Assembly: GCA_025363675.1 (NCBI GenBank)
Contig: JANYDJ010000036.1
Location: forward strand, 1 to 39,184
Length of the DNA: 39,184 nt
Direction: 5' to 3'
Source of the DNA: Flavobacteriaceae bacterium
GTDB lineage: Bacteria > Bacteroidota > Bacteroidia > UKL13-3
The position numbers were made by a program, and so were the translations under genes. A model generated the notes under the pieces. It did not search any database, was not told the DNA's origin, and saw only the letters and a program-made list of their open reading frames with translations. Shown in pieces: positions 3,286 through 33,880 of the stretch. Numbering within the stretch: the first letter of the stretch is position 1; each line of letters begins with the position of its first letter.

Positions 3286-3440
3286 AATAAAGGTGCAAGT
3301 TGCAGCATAATAACGGTTTGGTAAAATTAAGTTTTTTTAACCAAGCTTTAATAGCAGCAGAAACGGTTAAATATTCCGTTTAAATAATAAGAGAAGCAAT
3401 GAATATTCCCGAACATGCTAAATTGTTGAGCATACACTCG

Positions 3441-3480
3441 TTGAGATTGCCGCGTCGGAAGCCTCCTCGCAATGACGGGC
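3441..3480. repeat. Palindromic intergenic repeat
   Basis: An imperfect palindrome with outer arms ATTGC/GCAAT (3446-3450 and 3469-3473) around a GC-rich core, CGCGTCGGAAGCCTCCTC. Its composition is unlike the AT-rich spacer around it. It resembles the widespread ..ATTGCGAGGAGG../GCAATC.. intergenic repeat seen in many bacterial genomes (recalled, not searched). It lies between the divergently transcribed rnr and etfB genes. The 3286-3584 spacer otherwise shows only the etfB promoter. Confidence 0.55.
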
Positions 3481-3529
3481 TTAAAGAGTAAAGAGTTCAT
3501 TCTAATTTTTTTTGGCGGTTTACGAGGCT

Positions 3530-4343: not shown

Positions 4344-5309
4344 ATGAACGTATTAGTATTTGCCGAACATATAGATGGGTCATTTAAAAAATCGACTTTT
4401 GAAGCTATTTCTTATGCCAAGGCTATAACAGGAACCTCTTCTGTAACAGCAGTTGTGATAGGTGAAATAGATTCATCAAAACTATCAGAACTTGGAAAAT
4501 ATGGAGCCAGCAAAGTGCTTCACAATTCACAAGCATTATATAATACTTTTGATGGAGCAGCTTATGCAAGTATTATAGCAAGTGCAGCACAAAAGGAGCA
4601 AGCCAGAGTATTGGTAATATCGAACAGCTATTGCGGAAAGAATATAGCCCCGCGAGTGGCGGTTAAATTAAAAGCAGGTATTGTATCAGGTGTGGTTAGT
4701 TTACCAAAGATTGATGGAACGAGTTTCATAGTTCGCAAACCTGTGTTTAGTGGCAAAGGCTTGGCCGATGTTGCTATAGAAACCGATATAAAAATATTGG
4801 CAATAACACCAAACTCGTATCAGTTGAACGAAAGCCCAACAGATGCAGCTATTGAAAATATACAAAGCGATGCACAGCCAGCTTGCCAAAGCATGGAGAT
4901 AAAACGTGTAACAGGCAAAATACCGTTAACAGAAGCAGAGATAGTAGTGAGCGGTGGTCGTGGATGGAAAGGCCCCGAAAACTGGGGGATGATAGAAGAG
5001 CTGGCACAAATACTAGGCGGAGCAACCGCATGCAGCAAGCCTGTAAGCGATATGCACTGGAGAGGGCACGAGGAGCATGTGGGGCAAACAGGGATTACTA
5101 TTAAGCCCAATTTATATATAGCTACAGGAATTAGCGGAGCCATTCAACACTTAGCGGGTGTAAGCTCATCGAAAGTGATTGTGGTGATAAATAAAGACCC
5201 AGAAGCTCCTTTTTTTAAAGCTGCAGATTATGGAATAGTAGGAGATGTATTTGAGGTAATGCCCCAAATAATTGATGCCGCAAAAAAATTCAAAGCATCA
5301 TCCAATTAA
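4344..5309 (+). CDS. etfA: Electron transfer flavoprotein, alpha subunit
   Basis: This is the 321-residue alpha subunit that holds the FAD. The N-terminal domain (about 1-190) is the variable alpha/beta part. The C-terminal FAD-binding domain begins at IVVSGGRGWKGPENWGMIEE and includes VGQTGITIKPNLYIATGISGAIQH and the VVINKDPEAPFFKAADYGIVGD signature of the family. Length is normal. It is cotranscribed with etfB. With acyl-CoA dehydrogenases encoded elsewhere it would serve fatty-acid or branched-chain amino-acid oxidation (known role of the family). Confidence 0.96.
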   Translation: MNVLVFAEHIDGSFKKSTFEAISYAKAITGTSSVTAVVIGEIDSSKLSELGKYGASKVLHNSQALYNTFDGAAYASIIASAAQKEQARVLVISNSYCGKNIAPRVAVKLKAGIVSGVVSLPKIDGTSFIVRKPVFSGKGLADVAIETDIKILAITPNSYQLNESPTDAAIENIQSDAQPACQSMEIKRVTGKIPLTEAEIVVSGGRGWKGPENWGMIEELAQILGGATACSKPVSDMHWRGHEEHVGQTGITIKPNLYIATGISGAIQHLAGVSSSKVIVVINKDPEAPFFKAADYGIVGDVFEVMPQIIDAAKKFKASSN

Positions 5310-7123: not shown

Positions 7124-7765
7124 TTGAGCAGAAATAAAAAACTAGCACGCTTTGCTGAATTCTCCCAATTCTCAAACACCCACGAAACCAAAGAAGGGTT
7201 GAAGGGCAATTGGAAAACAAAAATATTCAAGAATAATAACCCAGTAGTATTAGAACTAGCTGCAGGCAAGGCAGAGTATACGGTGGGCATGGCTCGCTTG
7301 TTTCCCGATAAAAACTTTGTAGCTATTGACAAGAAGGGCAATAGAATGTGGGTGGGGGCAAAAAAGACACAAGAAGAAAATCTGATTAATACCGCATTTA
7401 TCCGCACCCAAATAGATTTTTTAACAGATTGGTTTGGCCATAACGAGGTAGATGAAATATGGATTATACACCCCGATCCGCAAATTGATAAAGCCCGAAA
7501 AAGATTAACTGGCCCGATGTTTATTCCTCGCTATCGAGAAATATTAAGACCAGGTGGCATTATACATTTAAAAACAGATAGCACTTTGTTATATGAGTAT
7601 ACTTTAGAAATTATTGAGCAAGAGAACCTGAAATTGATAAACCACCATCCCGATATATATCATTCAGAACTGTATAATGAAGTACTTGCTATTAAAACTT
7701 ATTACGAGCAAATGTTTACGGCAAAAGGTGAAACAATAAAATATATATCTTTCACCCTCGATTAG
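7124..7765 (+). CDS. trmB: tRNA (guanine-N7-)-methyltransferase
   Basis: This 213-residue class I SAM-dependent methyltransferase makes m7G46 in the variable loop of tRNA. The SAM-binding motif VVLELAAGKAEYTVGMA is at about residues 38-54. The family-specific EIWIIHPDPQIDKARKRLTGPMF block (~108-130) is the counterpart of the PDPWxKxxHxKRR motif. RPGGIIHLKTDS follows. The start is a TTG just before the conserved SRNKKLARFAEF segment, and no ATG is available there. It stands between divergent and convergent neighbours, so it is probably monocistronic. Confidence 0.94.
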   Translation: MSRNKKLARFAEFSQFSNTHETKEGLKGNWKTKIFKNNNPVVLELAAGKAEYTVGMARLFPDKNFVAIDKKGNRMWVGAKKTQEENLINTAFIRTQIDFLTDWFGHNEVDEIWIIHPDPQIDKARKRLTGPMFIPRYREILRPGGIIHLKTDSTLLYEYTLEIIEQENLKLINHHPDIYHSELYNEVLAIKTYYEQMFTAKGETIKYISFTLD

Positions 7766-7772
7766 TTAAGTG

Positions 7773-8273
7773 TTATAGGCTTTTGTGCGTTACCCTCAAG
7801 CCAATACCCTTAACACCCGTTAAGTTGTCAGTCCGCATCATTTGGCGGAATTCGAAACGATACTTGCCTGCTTTTTTTAGCACCACTTCTTTAAATTTAT
7901 CTTCATCAATAAGGCGGTAATCATATATATCGCCAAGGCCATGCCCCAGCCACTTGCCATTATCTTCGGCTAGTTTATATTCTACTAATTCCTTGGTGAG
8001 CCGGCCATCGGGGTTGTAAGCGTACACCAATAAGAAAATATTGCTATAAGGATAAGTTGCGGCAATTCTTAAATTGGTATGAAAATCATACACGCCCGTA
8101 GTATCGGTTATATCAAATTCAAAAGGAATTTTAAGGGTTTTGGCCCAGCTACCATTGTCAATGTATATATTTTTTTCAAACACGCGGTCGTTCTCAAAAG
8201 CAGAGGCAATGAATAAAACCAAGCCAACCAATGTGAAAAGGACTATAGAGATATAATTTTTTACAGATTTCAA
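7773..8273 (-). CDS. gldH: Gliding-motility protein GldH family, without lipobox Cys
   Basis: This 166-residue protein matches GldH, a gliding-motility protein of Bacteroidota normally anchored as a lipoprotein. The evidence is the N-terminal FENDRVFEKN segment, the IPFEFDITDTTGVYDFHTNLRIAATYPYSNIFLLVYAYNPDG core, the WLGHGLGDIYD turn, and the KAGKYRFEFRQMMRTDNLTGVKGIGLRV end. The N-terminal hydrophobic segment (residues ~8-25) ends IASAFENDRV, and no cysteine is present where the lipobox normally sits. The protein would therefore be an anchored or SPase I-cleaved variant. The start is TTG, 7 bases after a perfect promoter box. Gliding itself cannot be inferred from one gene. Confidence 0.85.
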   Translation of the reverse strand: MKSVKNYISIVLFTLVGLVLFIASAFENDRVFEKNIYIDNGSWAKTLKIPFEFDITDTTGVYDFHTNLRIAATYPYSNIFLLVYAYNPDGRLTKELVEYKLAEDNGKWLGHGLGDIYDYRLIDEDKFKEVVLKKAGKYRFEFRQMMRTDNLTGVKGIGLRVTHKSL

Positions 8274-28721: not shown

Positions 28722-29546
28722 ATGCTCAAATACAAATTGATGCACAATAAATTTAAAACAGGGTTACTGGGAACTATGATACTGATTTGCTTCGGCATGC
28801 AGGGGTTTGCTCAGCAATCTTCAAAAATATTTGTGCCATACAGAATGGGAAACCTTTGGGGATATAGCGATACCTCGGGTAAAATATTGATTAAACCTCG
28901 ATTCGCAGAAGTATTTCCGTTTGATGGGCTTTACGGAATGGTGAGGGAAAATGGAATTTGTAAGTGGATAGATCGAAAAGGGGAGGTGCATGACAAGATG
29001 TTTGGTGGCGAGCCCGATTGCGAAGAATACGAAGATTTTGGCCATGTGGTAGAAGACATTACCGGACTAGAAAATGTGGCGGGCAAATACGGACGGGCAG
29101 ATAGCGTGTCGTATAGTATTCCTTTTATATACGAAAATTTTAAGTCAAGTGGTATTGAGAATAGATTTGCTTTGATGAAGAACGGTTTGTGGGGGGTAGT
29201 CGATAGAAAAAATAAAACACTCGTGCCCTTTAAATACAGCGATATGCTTGTGCTAGACGAAAGCCATTTTTTAGCAAAAAACGACAGTGCTTATGGTGTA
29301 ATAGATATTACAGGAAGAATCACTGTCCCTTTTACTTATGATGGTATCAAAGATTTTGATGGGAAGATACTGATTGCCCGAAAAGGAGATTATTGGGGAT
29401 ATGTAAATGCAAAGGGACGACAGATAACAGCTTTTAAATATGCGGCTTGCAAACCTTTTGTAAAAGGCCTTGCTATTGTAACGCTTCCGAATGAACAAAT
29501 AGGATATATAGACATGAGGGGTAGAGAATATTGGAAAGAATTATAA
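28722..29546 (+). CDS. Exported WG-repeat protein
   Basis: This 274-residue protein has an N-terminal signal peptide ending FGMQGFAQ. An alternative ATG at 28740 would give a shorter leader. The mature part is a series of WG (KWG) repeats: NLWGYSDTSGKILIKPRF, GLWGVVDRKNKTLVPFKY, AYGVIDITGRITVPFTYD, DYWGYVNAKGRQITAFKY and a last YIDMRGREYW. The role of these repeats is unknown, but they often sit in exported or surface proteins of this phylum. A weak box (TAATATTG, 28683-28690) precedes it. It is followed without a gap by the Rieske-like lipoprotein gene. Confidence 0.85.
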   Translation: MLKYKLMHNKFKTGLLGTMILICFGMQGFAQQSSKIFVPYRMGNLWGYSDTSGKILIKPRFAEVFPFDGLYGMVRENGICKWIDRKGEVHDKMFGGEPDCEEYEDFGHVVEDITGLENVAGKYGRADSVSYSIPFIYENFKSSGIENRFALMKNGLWGVVDRKNKTLVPFKYSDMLVLDESHFLAKNDSAYGVIDITGRITVPFTYDGIKDFDGKILIARKGDYWGYVNAKGRQITAFKYAACKPFVKGLAIVTLPNEQIGYIDMRGREYWKEL

Positions 29547-29548
29547 AC

Positions 29549-29995
29549 GTGCAAAAATTATTATATATATATATTTTTTTTACAATAATTGCTTGTGGCA
29601 AAAGCACAAAAGATGATGCCATACCCTATGTGCCTGTTGACACTTATATTAATATAACCATTAACCAATATCTCAAACTACAAAACCCTGGTGGCTGGGC
29701 CGTAATAGAGAATGTGGGAGTGAGAGGTATTGCGGTTTTTAAAAATATAGCTGGAGAATTTAAGGCTTTCGATTTAACTTGTAGCTATCATCCCTTGGAC
29801 ACAGCTTCGAGATTGGTGGTTGATTCTTCGGGGTTTTATATGAAATGTGGTAGATATGTTGGAGGTACATTTACTCCTTTTTGCGGATCTCTGTTTGGCA
29901 CGGACGGTATGCCCACAAAGAATCCTGCAACACGGCAATTGCGAGAATATTATACAGTACTTACAGGGAATCTTTTGCATATATATAGTAATTAA
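29549..29995 (+). CDS. Rieske-fold lipoprotein lacking cluster ligands
   Basis: This 148-residue lipoprotein probably starts with GTG at 29549, 2 bases after the previous stop, giving the signal peptide MQKLLYIYIFFTIIAC. A TTG at 29531 would overlap the upstream gene. The C-terminal half has the outline of a Rieske domain: LTCSYHPLD where CxH is expected, then TPFCGSLFGTDGMP in place of CPCHGSxFD. The positions of the second Cys and His are altered, so a normal [2Fe-2S] cluster is unlikely. Similar cluster-less Rieske-like lipoproteins are common in Bacteroidota. It is coupled to the WG-repeat gene. Confidence 0.75.
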   Translation: MQKLLYIYIFFTIIACGKSTKDDAIPYVPVDTYINITINQYLKLQNPGGWAVIENVGVRGIAVFKNIAGEFKAFDLTCSYHPLDTASRLVVDSSGFYMKCGRYVGGTFTPFCGSLFGTDGMPTKNPATRQLREYYTVLTGNLLHIYSN

Positions 29996-30001
29996 AATCT
30001 A

Positions 30002-30508
30002 TTATTTAAAAAAAATATTAACTTTAGAAAATAGATTTGGGTCTATTGATTTAGAATTATAGAGTTCTTCGGTTGAAAAATATTTTTTTTCGCCAGGACG
30101 AATTAATAATAAAGCAGGACTTGAATATACTTGAAATTGTGAAAAGAGACTATTCTCTTTTGATTTCTGTGCTATAAACTCTGTTCTCTTAGCAGTATAA
30201 TCAAAAAGAACCCCATCAATTGAATTTTCCAACGAGGAAATTTCATACGTACTAAAAATGCAAGAATCTGTTAGTATGATTGCAATTATAGAATCAACAA
30301 TTTTAGCTTTCTTTATACTATCGAATAATGGCTTTAATTCTTCAAAACAATTAAAACAGTAACGGTTATTTTTTAAAAGCACCAGATATTTCACATGCAA
30401 TGTGTCTAAATATACAGGGGCGTTTTTTTTAGTATATAGTGGAGCATTCTGACTAAATGTAGTTTGCGAAAATATAATAAATAAGAATATTAAAAAACAA
30501 TATTTCAT
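30002..30508 (-). CDS. Exported thioredoxin-like protein with CFNC motif
   Basis: This 168-residue protein has a signal peptide ending TTFSQ. The mature part has a thioredoxin-like pattern: VKYLVLLKNNRYCFNCFEELKPLFDSI with Cys51 and Cys54 as a CxxC pair, then IIAIILTDSC. Near the end comes FQVYSSPALLLIRPGEKKYF, which looks like the cis-proline strand. It lacks the usual WCxxC tryptophan. The likely role is periplasmic thiol chemistry, perhaps on the Cys-containing exported proteins of the same operon (inference). Its ATG overlaps the stop of the preceding gene by 4 bases (ATGA), so it is translationally coupled to it. Confidence 0.72.
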   Translation of the reverse strand: MKYCFLIFLFIIFSQTTFSQNAPLYTKKNAPVYLDTLHVKYLVLLKNNRYCFNCFEELKPLFDSIKKAKIVDSIIAIILTDSCIFSTYEISSLENSIDGVLFDYTAKRTEFIAQKSKENSLFSQFQVYSSPALLLIRPGEKKYFSTEELYNSKSIDPNLFSKVNIFFK

Positions 30509-31725
30509 CTGTTGTATTTAAATACATTAATTCCCCAGATTCGACCTTTTTCTTTATAAAACTCACCACAAGCTTCAGTCATCTGTTTGTTGGTCTTTTG
30601 AATAGTCAAAGAAAATGGACAAAAGCAATCGGTCATTACATATAAATAATTATCACAAGAATAAATATCATTGGAATAAATTAATTCAGGAAAAGGTCTG
30701 TTAGACGTCATAATTACCTCGCTTGTTAAGAAGAGTTCTTTGGTAGAAATCCGAATATTAGAATCTGTTAAGATCATTTTACCTTTTTTCCACTTCCACA
30801 AATCAACGCTGCGAAAATCTTTCCCTTCACCATCCTTATAAGAGACAAAAATGTTTGATTTGTTAAAAGGTATAATTTTTTCTACTCTGTAAAGTTTTTG
30901 ATCTAATTCATATAAATTTTCTATGAACTGTTTTAAATTTGTATTAGATGAAGTAGCACTATCTATGTTAAATTTTGTCCAACTTAAAATATTTCTAGAT
31001 ATTGAATCTATCAAAACTAAATTCTTATCATAAATTCGTATTTTATAGTCTAATGTATTAGAAAAATACATTCTATTTTTAACAATTTCAATCCAATTAT
31101 TAATTAAATGAGAGAATTCAATACCTCTATAGTTGGGGAAAACAGAAACAGAAACGGAATCATTATTTATATTATATTTTGAAAAAACCACTCTTTCTTT
31201 TTGGTCCAGGGGATTACTATTATAACAGAAGGAAAAAAGAAAATTCTCCTTGTCAAATTGTTTGATATTGTCATAATAATAACTTGTTTTTATTCTTCTG
31301 TGGAATACATACTCTGCCTTATTCTCTTTCCTAAAAACAATAATACAATTATTATTATTAATAAACACATATTTTTCATTTTCTGAAACAAAGAAATTAA
31401 TAAACCAGCCTGAAGTAAAGTCAGTGTTAAAAGAGTAATTTTTCATACTCAAGCATAGAGAGTCTGTTTTTTTGTTGGAAAAACCAAATGAATATAATTT
31501 TATTAGCGAGTCTTTTTTATCAATGATATTGTAAATATAAGAAGATTCAAAATCGGCAAAATAAAGCTTATTATTATTTGATGAAGTTATAGTCTTTTTG
31601 TAACCATAAGTGTGGTTTTTAATACTGGTATTATAAATATTATCTAATTTAATAACCTCTTGTCCGTTAGATAAGTTTAACCAAATTAAGAATAAGATAA
31701 AAAAAAAATCTCTTTTATATCGCAT
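30505..31725 (-). CDS. Exported protein, probable beta-propeller (paralog 2)
   Basis: This 406-residue protein has a signal peptide ending LNLSNGQ. The rest is strand-rich, with repeated Asn/Tyr/Ile-rich segments typical of a beta-propeller, but no named family is clear. It is a paralog of the gene just upstream. Shared blocks include ERVVFSKYNI, IEFSHLINNW, IENLYELDQKLYRVEKI and SNRPFPELIYSNDIY. The C-terminus has CFCPFS and a later ACGEFYKEKG, cysteines also present in the paralog. It starts 9 bases after that paralog's stop and its own stop overlaps the thioredoxin-like gene. Confidence 0.7.
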   Translation of the reverse strand: MRYKRDFFFILFLIWLNLSNGQEVIKLDNIYNTSIKNHTYGYKKTITSSNNNKLYFADFESSYIYNIIDKKDSLIKLYSFGFSNKKTDSLCLSMKNYSFNTDFTSGWFINFFVSENEKYVFINNNNCIIVFRKENKAEYVFHRRIKTSYYYDNIKQFDKENFLFSFCYNSNPLDQKERVVFSKYNINNDSVSVSVFPNYRGIEFSHLINNWIEIVKNRMYFSNTLDYKIRIYDKNLVLIDSISRNILSWTKFNIDSATSSNTNLKQFIENLYELDQKLYRVEKIIPFNKSNIFVSYKDGEGKDFRSVDLWKWKKGKMILTDSNIRISTKELFLTSEVIMTSNRPFPELIYSNDIYSCDNYLYVMTDCFCPFSLTIQKTNKQMTEACGEFYKEKGRIWGINVFKYNR

Positions 31726-31734
31726 ATTATAAAA

Positions 31735-32982
31735 TTAGTTTATTTCTAAAATAACAACTCCAAAATTATTGCCATGTTTATCAATATATTCACGACAATT
31801 TTTTGAGTACTCATTTTTTAAGCAACTATTACAGTCAGGACAATAAAACTGCTGTATAAAATACCCCTTTTTGTTATAAAAATATAAATCAGAAGAATAT
31901 GTTATTTCAGGAAATGACCTATTAGAATAATATAGTGTATCACCCAAATCAAGCAGCGATGTTGTATTTACTATAACATCTAATTTTTGAGGAATCCATC
32001 CTCTGTCTTTTTTCTCCCACAAGTCAATGCGACGAGTATTCGAATTGTCTCCAGGGTGCTTATAAGAAATCAGTAAATTCTCATTTCCAATAAAATATAT
32101 TTTCTCTATCCTGCTTATTTTAGCGTCGAGTTCATGAAGATTCTCAATGGTATTTTTTAGGTTAAAGTTATTGTAAATAGAATTTATAATAGAATCTTCA
32201 GCCCTAATCCACATATTACTTTCGCGGTTAATTGTATAAATAGAATCAAAATTAAAACTATAAAATGTAATAGAGTAATTCAATGAGTTTGCAATAGCAA
32301 AATACTGATTAGTAACATCGAACCACTTGTGGGTTAAATGACTATATTCGATTCCATTTAAGTGTAGTTTTAAATGTTTAACAATCTTGTTTTTCTTAAT
32401 ATTATACTTTGAAACAACAACTCGTTCACTGTCAGAAATATCCGTATAGTTATAAATTTGGAATAAAAGAAATTCTTCTTCTGATATTTGTACTATACTT
32501 TCATACGCATAAGGTTTTACAAAAAAACTTGCAAATTCATAATTTAAATACTTCGCTCTTTTAAAAATTAATACATGGTCATAAAAATTCAAGAGAACTG
32601 TTTTTTCATCTTCTGAAAAGGTAAATGATTTTAACCCATACTGAATAAAGAAATCTAACCCAATAATACCTTTAAAGTTACAAGTTACCTTGGAAGTTTT
32701 TCTAGTATTGGTAGTAAATTTATAAATAGTAAGCGTTGAGTCATTAGTACTCAATAACTTCTTTAAGTTTTTATATTCGTAGTTTGTAAAATAAAGATTT
32801 TCTTTACATCCAAAATGTAGTGGACTTCTAGAGTCACTATATTTGTTTTTAATACCTATATCAATGTTGTTTTCATATTTAAATAGCTGCTGTCCAAAAC
32901 CTTTATTTAATAATGCTAAAAAGATAAAGAAAAGTTTTGGACAGCAGCTATTTTTGAATATATATTTTTTAAAGTAATCCAA
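31735..32982 (-). CDS. Exported protein, probable beta-propeller (paralog 1)
   Basis: This 415-residue protein starts with TTG at 32982, inside the end of the upstream gene (14-base overlap). Its N-terminus is unusual: a long n-region with NSCCPK precedes the signal-peptide core LFFIFLALLNKGFGQ. The segments NSCCPK and FGQQLF are encoded by the two arms of a perfect 20-bp inverted repeat. The mature part resembles the next gene closely (IEYSHLTHKWFDV, IENLHELDAKISRIEKI, YYSNRSFPEITYSSDLY). The C-terminal cysteine cluster is FYCPDCNSCLKNEYSKNC. The fold is inferred to be a propeller and the function is unknown. Confidence 0.68.
   Translation of the reverse strand: MDYFKKYIFKNSCCPKLFFIFLALLNKGFGQQLFKYENNIDIGIKNKYSDSRSPLHFGCKENLYFTNYEYKNLKKLLSTNDSTLTIYKFTTNTRKTSKVTCNFKGIIGLDFFIQYGLKSFTFSEDEKTVLLNFYDHVLIFKRAKYLNYEFASFFVKPYAYESIVQISEEEFLLFQIYNYTDISDSERVVVSKYNIKKNKIVKHLKLHLNGIEYSHLTHKWFDVTNQYFAIANSLNYSITFYSFNFDSIYTINRESNMWIRAEDSIINSIYNNFNLKNTIENLHELDAKISRIEKIYFIGNENLLISYKHPGDNSNTRRIDLWEKKDRGWIPQKLDVIVNTTSLLDLGDTLYYSNRSFPEITYSSDLYFYNKKGYFIQQFYCPDCNSCLKNEYSKNCREYIDKHGNNFGVVILEIN
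32881..32953. repeat. Perfect 20-bp inverted repeat in a coding sequence
   Basis: Arms at 32881-32900 and 32934-32953 are exact reverse complements, with a 33-base A+T-rich loop. Neither the base outside nor the base inside the arms pairs, so the match ends abruptly. On the mRNA it would form a very stable stem beginning 30 bases after the TTG start of the 31735-32982 gene. No T tract follows, so it is not a standard terminator. Confidence 0.95.
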
Positions 32983-33379
32983 GTGCAGTCGCTTCTGGTA
33001 TAGTATAAATTCTAATAATTATTTGACCAGGAATATCTGTGGTGCTTATCCTCATGTAAGCGTCAGGAAAAAGAAAGTTATTGTTTGTATTTCCTTGAGC
33101 AATTTGTAAATCTGCAAAGCCCACTAATTCATTAATACGAGGTAAAGCAAGTTCATTTGGTCCTGGGGTCAATTTTGTCCAAACACAAGCCGTTGTTCCA
33201 GGTTCTTCACAATCTAGCACATGTGCACTGCCTCCACCAGAAACAGGTGTATGTTTTTCAGTAATAAGTCTATAACCACTGCTACCACCATTAATGCGGC
33301 AAATGGTCACAGTTGCCAACGAATTAAAGGAAATTGCGATAAAAGCAATCAGTAAATAACGTTTTTTAAAAAGTTTCAT
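32969..33379 (-). CDS. Small exported Cys protein (paralog B)
   Basis: This 136-residue protein has a signal peptide ending around ISFNSLA. The mature part begins TVTICRINGGSSGYRLITEKH and carries SGGGSAHVLDCEEPGTTACVWTKL, with Cys27, Cys57 and Cys65. The tail ends IYTIPEATALGLL. It shares with the gene just upstream the blocks GG(S/T)AHxLxCExPGxTxCxW and the C-terminal EAxxLGLL. It is the second gene of an apparent five-gene unit. I do not recognise the family. The shared motif suggests a secreted or surface-associated domain. Confidence 0.7.
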   Translation of the reverse strand: MKLFKKRYLLIAFIAISFNSLATVTICRINGGSSGYRLITEKHTPVSGGGSAHVLDCEEPGTTACVWTKLTPGPNELALPRINELVGFADLQIAQGNTNNNFLFPDAYMRISTTDIPGQIIIRIYTIPEATALGLL

Positions 33380-33416
33380 AATTTTATAGTTTTAAGGATT
33401 TATTTTACATAAGAAA

Positions 33417-33815
33417 TTAATTTAGTAAACCAAGTTGTTGGGCTTCTAAAACGGTATAAACAGTAAAGGTATAATTGTTAAGTCCTGTAGCAGACCAAAC
33501 AACAAAATTTGCACTGCCGAATAGAGCTTGACCATCAAGTATGTTTTGTGAAATTTTATTAAGTACAAAATTTTCAATTATACTGCACGGTGCCTCTTCT
33601 TCTCCTTTGGGAGGAGAAGTAATCCAAGAACATGGAGTGTTACCAGGTGCTTCGCATACTAATTTGTGTGCCGTACCACCACTTCCATTGGGCTGATGGG
33701 TTTCACATACTCTAAAGTAGCCACCAGGACCTTTATTACTTTTACAAATTTGATAATAGCCAAAAACTGGTGATAGCATTAATGCTAAAAGGGGAACAAG
33801 AATTAATTTTTTCAT
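33417..33815 (-). CDS. Small exported Cys protein (paralog A)
   Basis: This 132-residue protein starts at the ATG at 33815 with the signal peptide MKKLILVPLLALMLSPVFG. An upstream in-frame TTG would put a foreign stretch before this peptide. The mature protein has Cys24, Cys37, Cys54, Cys62 and Cys77 in YYQICKSNKGPGGYFRVCET, SGGTAHKLVCEAPGNTPCSW and APCSI. The tail ends YTVLEAQQLGLLN, like paralog B. An acidic, proline-rich PPKGEEEAPC segment differs from its partner. It is probably the first gene of the unit. No perfect promoter box was found, only a tandem 14-bp repeat upstream. Confidence 0.7.
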   Translation of the reverse strand: MKKLILVPLLALMLSPVFGYYQICKSNKGPGGYFRVCETHQPNGSGGTAHKLVCEAPGNTPCSWITSPPKGEEEAPCSIIENFVLNKISQNILDGQALFGSANFVVWSATGLNNYTFTVYTVLEAQQLGLLN

Positions 33816-33852
33816 AATAATAATTTGTTTAAATTTTGATGATAATAAAAAA

Positions 33853-33880
33853 CAAATGAACATAAACAAATGAACATAAA
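33853..33880. repeat. Tandem 14-bp direct repeat
   Basis: The unit CAAATGAACATAAA occurs twice in tandem (33853-33866 and 33867-33880), 38 bases upstream of the first gene of the small-protein operon. It could mark a regulator site or simply be a short duplication. Confidence 0.8.

Follow-up and report, generated by a model that had tools for sequence, protein, structure and literature searches.

A three-part envelope module of Bacteroidota with a small cysteine protein, a predicted beta-propeller and a thioredoxin-like protein

The closest described counterparts of the operon discussed here are the NVEALA loci of gut bacteria related to Bacteroides, in which a small exported cysteine peptide is encoded directly upstream of a propeller gene, thioredoxin-like genes with a CTSC motif are found nearby, and part of the peptides contain a C-x3-G-x3-C core. 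For the individual proteins, the described systems to be compared are the propellers XusB, BtuG/BtuK, BF0058 (4raa) and DUF4221 3s9j on the one hand, and the TlpA/DsbD-type thioredoxin-fold oxidoreductases on the other. The present operon shares with the NVEALA loci the small exported cysteine protein directly upstream of a propeller-family gene, and it also includes a thioredoxin-like gene. It differs from them in that its small proteins have neither an NVEALA leader nor a match to PF14055, measure 120–165 residues across their family and are predicted to form a beta3-alpha-beta3 domain, and in that no signal peptidase or transglutaminase-like gene belongs to the module. The operon is one version of a three-part envelope module that is found across the phylum Bacteroidota, consisting of a small protein (S), a propeller-family protein (L) and a thioredoxin-like protein (T). 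A literature search returned no description of this S-L-T module.

The window, by which we mean the whole analysed stretch of 39,184 nucleotides (contig JANYDJ010000036.1), contains the following features of interest.

33417..33815, minus strand: S1, 132-aa exported small protein with 5 Cys, core CEAPGNTPC
32969..33379, minus strand: S2, 136-aa exported small protein with 3 Cys, core CEEPGTTAC; paralog of S1
31735..32982, minus strand: L1, 415-aa exported beta-propeller-family protein; TTG start, 14-base overlap with S2; fold from homologue model
30505..31725, minus strand: L2, 406-aa exported beta-propeller-family protein, paralog of L1; fold from homologue model
30002..30508, minus strand: T, 168-aa exported thioredoxin-like protein, C51-F-N-C54, P131 at the cis-Pro position; 4-base (ATGA) overlap with L2
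33816..33926, minus strand: presumed operon leader/promoter, with a 14-nt tandem direct repeat AAACAAATGAACAT x2 at 33850-33877; putative function
32881..32953, minus strand: near-perfect inverted repeat in the first codons of L1; 29-nt arms, 93%; predicted RNA hairpin of about -42 kcal/mol, z -7.1

The first-pass annotation had described positions 30002-33815 as five same-strand genes with export leaders and short gaps or overlaps, comprising two small cysteine proteins, a paralogous pair of large proteins and a protein with a CFNC motif, and this description holds. The intergenic distances along S1-S2-L1-L2-T are 37, -14, 9 and -4 bases, and all five frames begin with a hydrophobic leader as judged by eye. 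S1 and S2 are 33% identical (E 2e-19), L1 and L2 are 29% identical (E 4e-52), and the CFNC motif corresponds to residues 51-54 of T. None of the five proteins matches Pfam or NCBIfam, and a PDB sequence search with the window proteins gave no match. The inverted repeat in L1, which was not found in the sister genomes, could tune the translation of L1 or be a templated mutation. The AAACAAATGAACAT x2 repeat, a possible operator, precedes the start of S1 by about 40 bases. Tail to tail with the operon lies a lipoprotein gene (window 29531-29995) that gives a weak, degenerate Rieske-like match (E 0.15) and is kept across the genus at about 80% identity.

The block had also been described as rich in A/T and in Asn, Lys and Ile codons, which is correct in part. 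The GC content of the operon is 0.283, compared to 0.379 for the remainder of the window, and the AT bias concerns all five genes, their GC3 values being 0.19–0.25 and the lowest value among the 34 other window genes being 0.251. The excess of Asn, Lys and Ile is present in L1 and L2 (fractions of 0.29 and 0.31, with a maximum of 0.27 elsewhere), and S1 and S2 are unexceptional in this respect. At 22 of 23 loci in the relatives, the module genes have a higher AT content than the flanks. The bias belongs therefore to the module, and is by itself no proof of recent transfer.

The conservation of the genes was examined with separate S and L profiles across the GTDB family of the window (64 genomes), and each profile matches 16 genomes. 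S and L are adjacent on the same strand at all family loci where the contig permits. L comes directly after S at nearly all S loci and is usually followed by T, which gives the order S (1-2 copies), L, T, with all genes on one strand and either overlapping or separated by short gaps. In at least three genomes L and T form a single open reading frame, of 547 residues in G003 (L036) and 546 residues in G022 (L033), while in G025 (L034) the fused frame includes the CxxC motif ahead of the contig end. G086 (L082) has the arrangement of the fusions with a frame break. Since they are fused into one frame in some species, L and T would be expected to work together, and we consider the fusion strong evidence for this.

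A held-out test was performed with a profile of L only over 395 genomes of the phylum, S and T being unused in the search. Five new genomes outside the window's class were matched, and at these loci S is found directly upstream (5/5; S-profile E 4e-6 to 7e-17) and T directly downstream (5/5; T-profile E 1e-10 to 3e-22). A profile of S only yields more loci, in other families of the window's class, where S is followed, if the contig permits, by an exported gene of 365-500 codons that matches the L profile at L247, L248 and L250-L255 (weakly at L255, E 0.009). T is missing at L081, L085, L245, L246 and L250-L252, where the S cysteines are retained; T is therefore common but not obligatory. The profile searches, the gene order and the held-out loci show that S, L and T are passed on together, one or two S genes preceding L and L preceding T, with reading frames that often overlap. 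A lack of joint conservation in any other genome, named in the first-pass annotation as a refuting observation, is thus contradicted.

The distribution among deposited records is as follows. For the window protein P0004, a single-protein scan of named genomes gave no match, nor did plasmid or phage collections, and the L-T fusion has no relative in viral contigs. The fusion alignment matches four named records, one of which is the complete chromosome of Bacteroidetes bacterium UKL13-3, described from a cyanobacterial co-culture of Upper Klamath Lake (PMC5248499). The named records with the fusion are uncultured freshwater Bacteroidetes. Two further arrangements were seen among the relatives: an orphan L gene beside degenerate tandem repeats that encode short repeated Cys-containing frames (L035 7400-10100, G018:C1), and tandem modules beside S-L-T that are composed of a small lipoprotein, a lipoprotein of about 360 residues and a CxxC protein (L030 5876-11496, L033 3901-5997), the latter without Pfam matches.

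Concerning the proteins themselves, the C-x3-G-x3-C pattern is present in 49 of the 49 S proteins examined. The predicted structure of S is globular, with a beta3-alpha-beta3 topology and a pLDDT of 77 (above 85 in the C-terminal part), and it has no significant PDB match.

The propeller assignment comes from a structure prediction of the fused L-T homologue L036. A Foldseek search with this model gives 64 PDB matches with E <= 0.001. Most of the top matches are propellers (E about 1e-6) and include B. fragilis BF0058 (4raa), XusB and BtuK1; DUF4221 3s9j is matched at E 1.5e-4. L is thus predicted to have a beta-propeller fold, on a model that is of the homologue and not of the window protein, with a pLDDT of 75 and TM values of at most about 0.48. 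What L shares with XusB, BtuG/BtuK, BF0058 and 3s9j is the fold class; no sequence similarity to them was detected, and no TonB receptor lies near the module.

For T, the residues C51, C54 and P131, that is, the CxxC motif and the cis-Pro position, are invariant in 19 of 19 homologues. Within the L036 fusion model, DSSP assigns to the T domain (pLDDT about 85) the order beta-alpha-beta-alpha-beta-beta-alpha, and the CxxC motif opens the first helix. By profile the thioredoxin homology is weak, the best single member being Redoxin at E 0.0013 (for one homologue), and in the PDB profile comparison BdbD is at E 0.096. T (P0005) has no Pfam match, and no signal was obtained against the TlpA-like protein of the window. 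Judged by the model, T combines the CxxC and cis-Pro residues with the secondary-structure order of the thioredoxin fold, which agrees with the earlier reading of the CxxC protein and is the likeness to the TlpA/DsbD-type oxidoreductases. It differs from these in being below the Pfam thresholds, short, exported, and the gene neighbour or fusion partner of a propeller.

Only two cysteine pairs are fixed across the module, the C-x3-G-x3-C pair of S and the CxxC pair of T. The C-terminal cysteines of L1 and L2, which had been pointed out in the first-pass annotation, are not kept in the family and are already missing in the sister species G001. Because they are not conserved, a disulfide role for them is unsupported. 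It should be added that the two cysteines of C-x3-G-x3-C could serve as metal ligands rather than form a disulfide.

The relation to the NVEALA loci had been suggested as an analogy, and it turns out to be closer than that, with a common C-x3-G-x3-C core and a linkage to a thioredoxin-like gene. The operon is nevertheless not an NVEALA locus, because PF14055 is unmatched (no match over the cut-off in the window's GTDB family), the propeller families differ and no profile similarity is found; the NVEALA leader is likewise missing. L matches none of the TolB_like, DUF5128 and DUF4221 Pfam propeller families, whereas control NVEALA propellers do, and homology between L and the NVEALA propellers was not found by profile comparison (probability 0.2). 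When the S profile is compared with the NVEALA peptides, the two core cysteines align (probability 60). In a sample of 62 non-redundant mature NVEALA peptides, collected from other genomes, C-x3-G-x3-C occurs in 14 against 1.7 expected from shuffling, and C-x-G-x-G-x3-C in 10 against 0.2. If the loci from which the thioredoxin-like profile was built are set aside, a thioredoxin-like gene comes next for 5/11 peptides with the core and for 0/42 without it (Fisher p 1.6e-4), a difference that overstates the independent events since the loci counted include close relatives; the motif itself was first noticed in the discovery loci. The NVEALA peptides fall into cysteine-spacing classes (L125, L126, L157, L158, L160, L164, L167), and the class with C-x3-G-x3-C is associated with a lipoprotein that contains a thioredoxin-like domain of the CTSC type.

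The reading that we prefer, and to which we would give an even chance, is that L and T, as propeller and thioredoxin, form a pair dedicated to handling the disulfide of the secreted small protein S. That T acts on S is argued mainly from the NVEALA loci, a second setting in which the core is coupled with a thioredoxin-like partner. According to this mechanism, S would be exported and would bind, either in the periplasm or on the cell surface, to the propeller L. T, either docked on L or fused to it, would then make, break or reshuffle the nine-residue disulfide loop of S. With L holding S and T handling its loop, the cassette would thus be a dedicated maturation or holding apparatus for a small secreted disulfide protein.

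The sequence divergence of the operon bears on what S might do. The operon occupies a common chromosomal site in three species of the genus, between which the flanking proteins are 76-96% identical, as opposed to 24-57% for the operon proteins. By their operon genes G000 and G002 belong together, whereas in four of the six flanking genes G000 is nearest to G001. A single L copy is present at the site in G001, and two copies each in G000 and G002. This variability fits either a whole-cassette exchange or strong diversifying selection, and suggests an outward-facing role. Because the cassette is hypervariable and apparently exchanged at a fixed chromosomal site, S would most likely act outward, either to recognise other cells or to compete with them, and L would be its cognate partner.

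The same hypervariability and the topology conflict at this site would also fit a toxin-immunity or bacteriocin-like cassette. In that case S would be a secreted antagonist that is folded by T and neutralised by L in the producer, and L would duplicate and diverge with S as in arms-race loci. The duplication of both S and L in the window and in L086 speaks in favour of this, as does the presence of several independent S loci in each of G275, G300 and G385. However, no toxin fold or family was found, the globular S model having no significant PDB match, there is no dedicated exporter gene, and one L often serves two S. We therefore regard this explanation as unlikely, while giving it some weight.

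Another option to be considered is the capture of a ligand or metal. Here, L would bind a small molecule or metal in the manner of XusB and BtuG/BtuK, to which the Foldseek matches with the Bacteroides siderophore- and B12-binding propellers XusB and BtuK1 point, and S would be a secreted, hemophore- or chalkophore-like carrier whose cysteines are kept reduced by T. A reduced cysteine pair is a common metal ligand. This scenario seems quite unlikely to us, as no TonB-dependent receptor or SusCD-like gene was recognised beside the module in the loci read, and as the extreme sequence variability is unusual for nutrient carriers.

A role in periplasmic redox or stress sensing was considered as well, in which S would be a thiol switch, read by L and reset by T, with local regulators setting the expression. 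Such regulator genes do exist: XRE-type genes adjoin L032, L034, L036, L082, L104, L106, L107 and L246, a NarL-type regulator is present at L033 and L078, and a LytTR-type one is located upstream at L084 (all types assigned by eye). However, the regulator type varies by locus, the window locus has none, and the module includes no transmembrane sensor, which makes this role improbable.

The XRE-type genes are directly beside S at eight loci and are mostly divergent. Leader elements were also seen at the relatives' loci. The DUF805b RNA (RF02914) is found 20-55 nt upstream of S starts at L030 (9309-9341 and 7096-7128) and L085 (3201-3233), with weaker matches at L036 (6806-6838), L082 and L034. 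It was considered as a module-specific riboregulator and rejected: it occurs in 53 of the 64 family genomes, before genes as different as those for rhodopsin, exported proteins and an HNH nuclease. Because it is a general 5'-leader element there, we do not use it as functional evidence, and as such it may interest workers on this orphan RNA. A second conserved leader, AAAGTTTTC(A/G)GCAGGTTTTGA..TTATAAACCGCAA, lies just upstream of the S start at four loci and has no Rfam match above threshold.

L033, ~8000-8055: second leader
L078, ~3440-3494: second leader
L079, ~5209-5265: second leader
L081, ~7746-7800: second leader

Finally, that the genes are accidental neighbours on an AT-rich foreign island, for which the low GC and GC3 could be cited, is refuted by the gene order kept across genera, families and classes, by the L-T fusions and by the 5/5 held-out loci, with nothing found in plasmid, phage or viral collections, and retains next to no probability.

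Returning to the propeller-thioredoxin pair acting on S, a broader version can be formulated, which we put forward tentatively and would place somewhat short of an even chance. There may be a phylum-wide class of secreted disulfide-loop proteins with a C-x3-G-x3-C core, including part of the NVEALA peptides, whose maturation or regulation is the task of dedicated pairs of a propeller and a thioredoxin. The window operon would be the first described non-NVEALA branch of this class, and the L-T fusions would show how propeller and thioredoxin-like domain are partnered.

Three protein families without a database entry thus constitute one conserved envelope module across Bacteroidota, and the common cysteine core ties this module to the abundant, functionless NVEALA loci of gut Bacteroidales. 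For S-L-T and NVEALA alike, this provides a testable hypothesis, namely that a propeller-docked thioredoxin would act on a secreted disulfide loop, and the fused propeller-thioredoxin protein could be purified directly.
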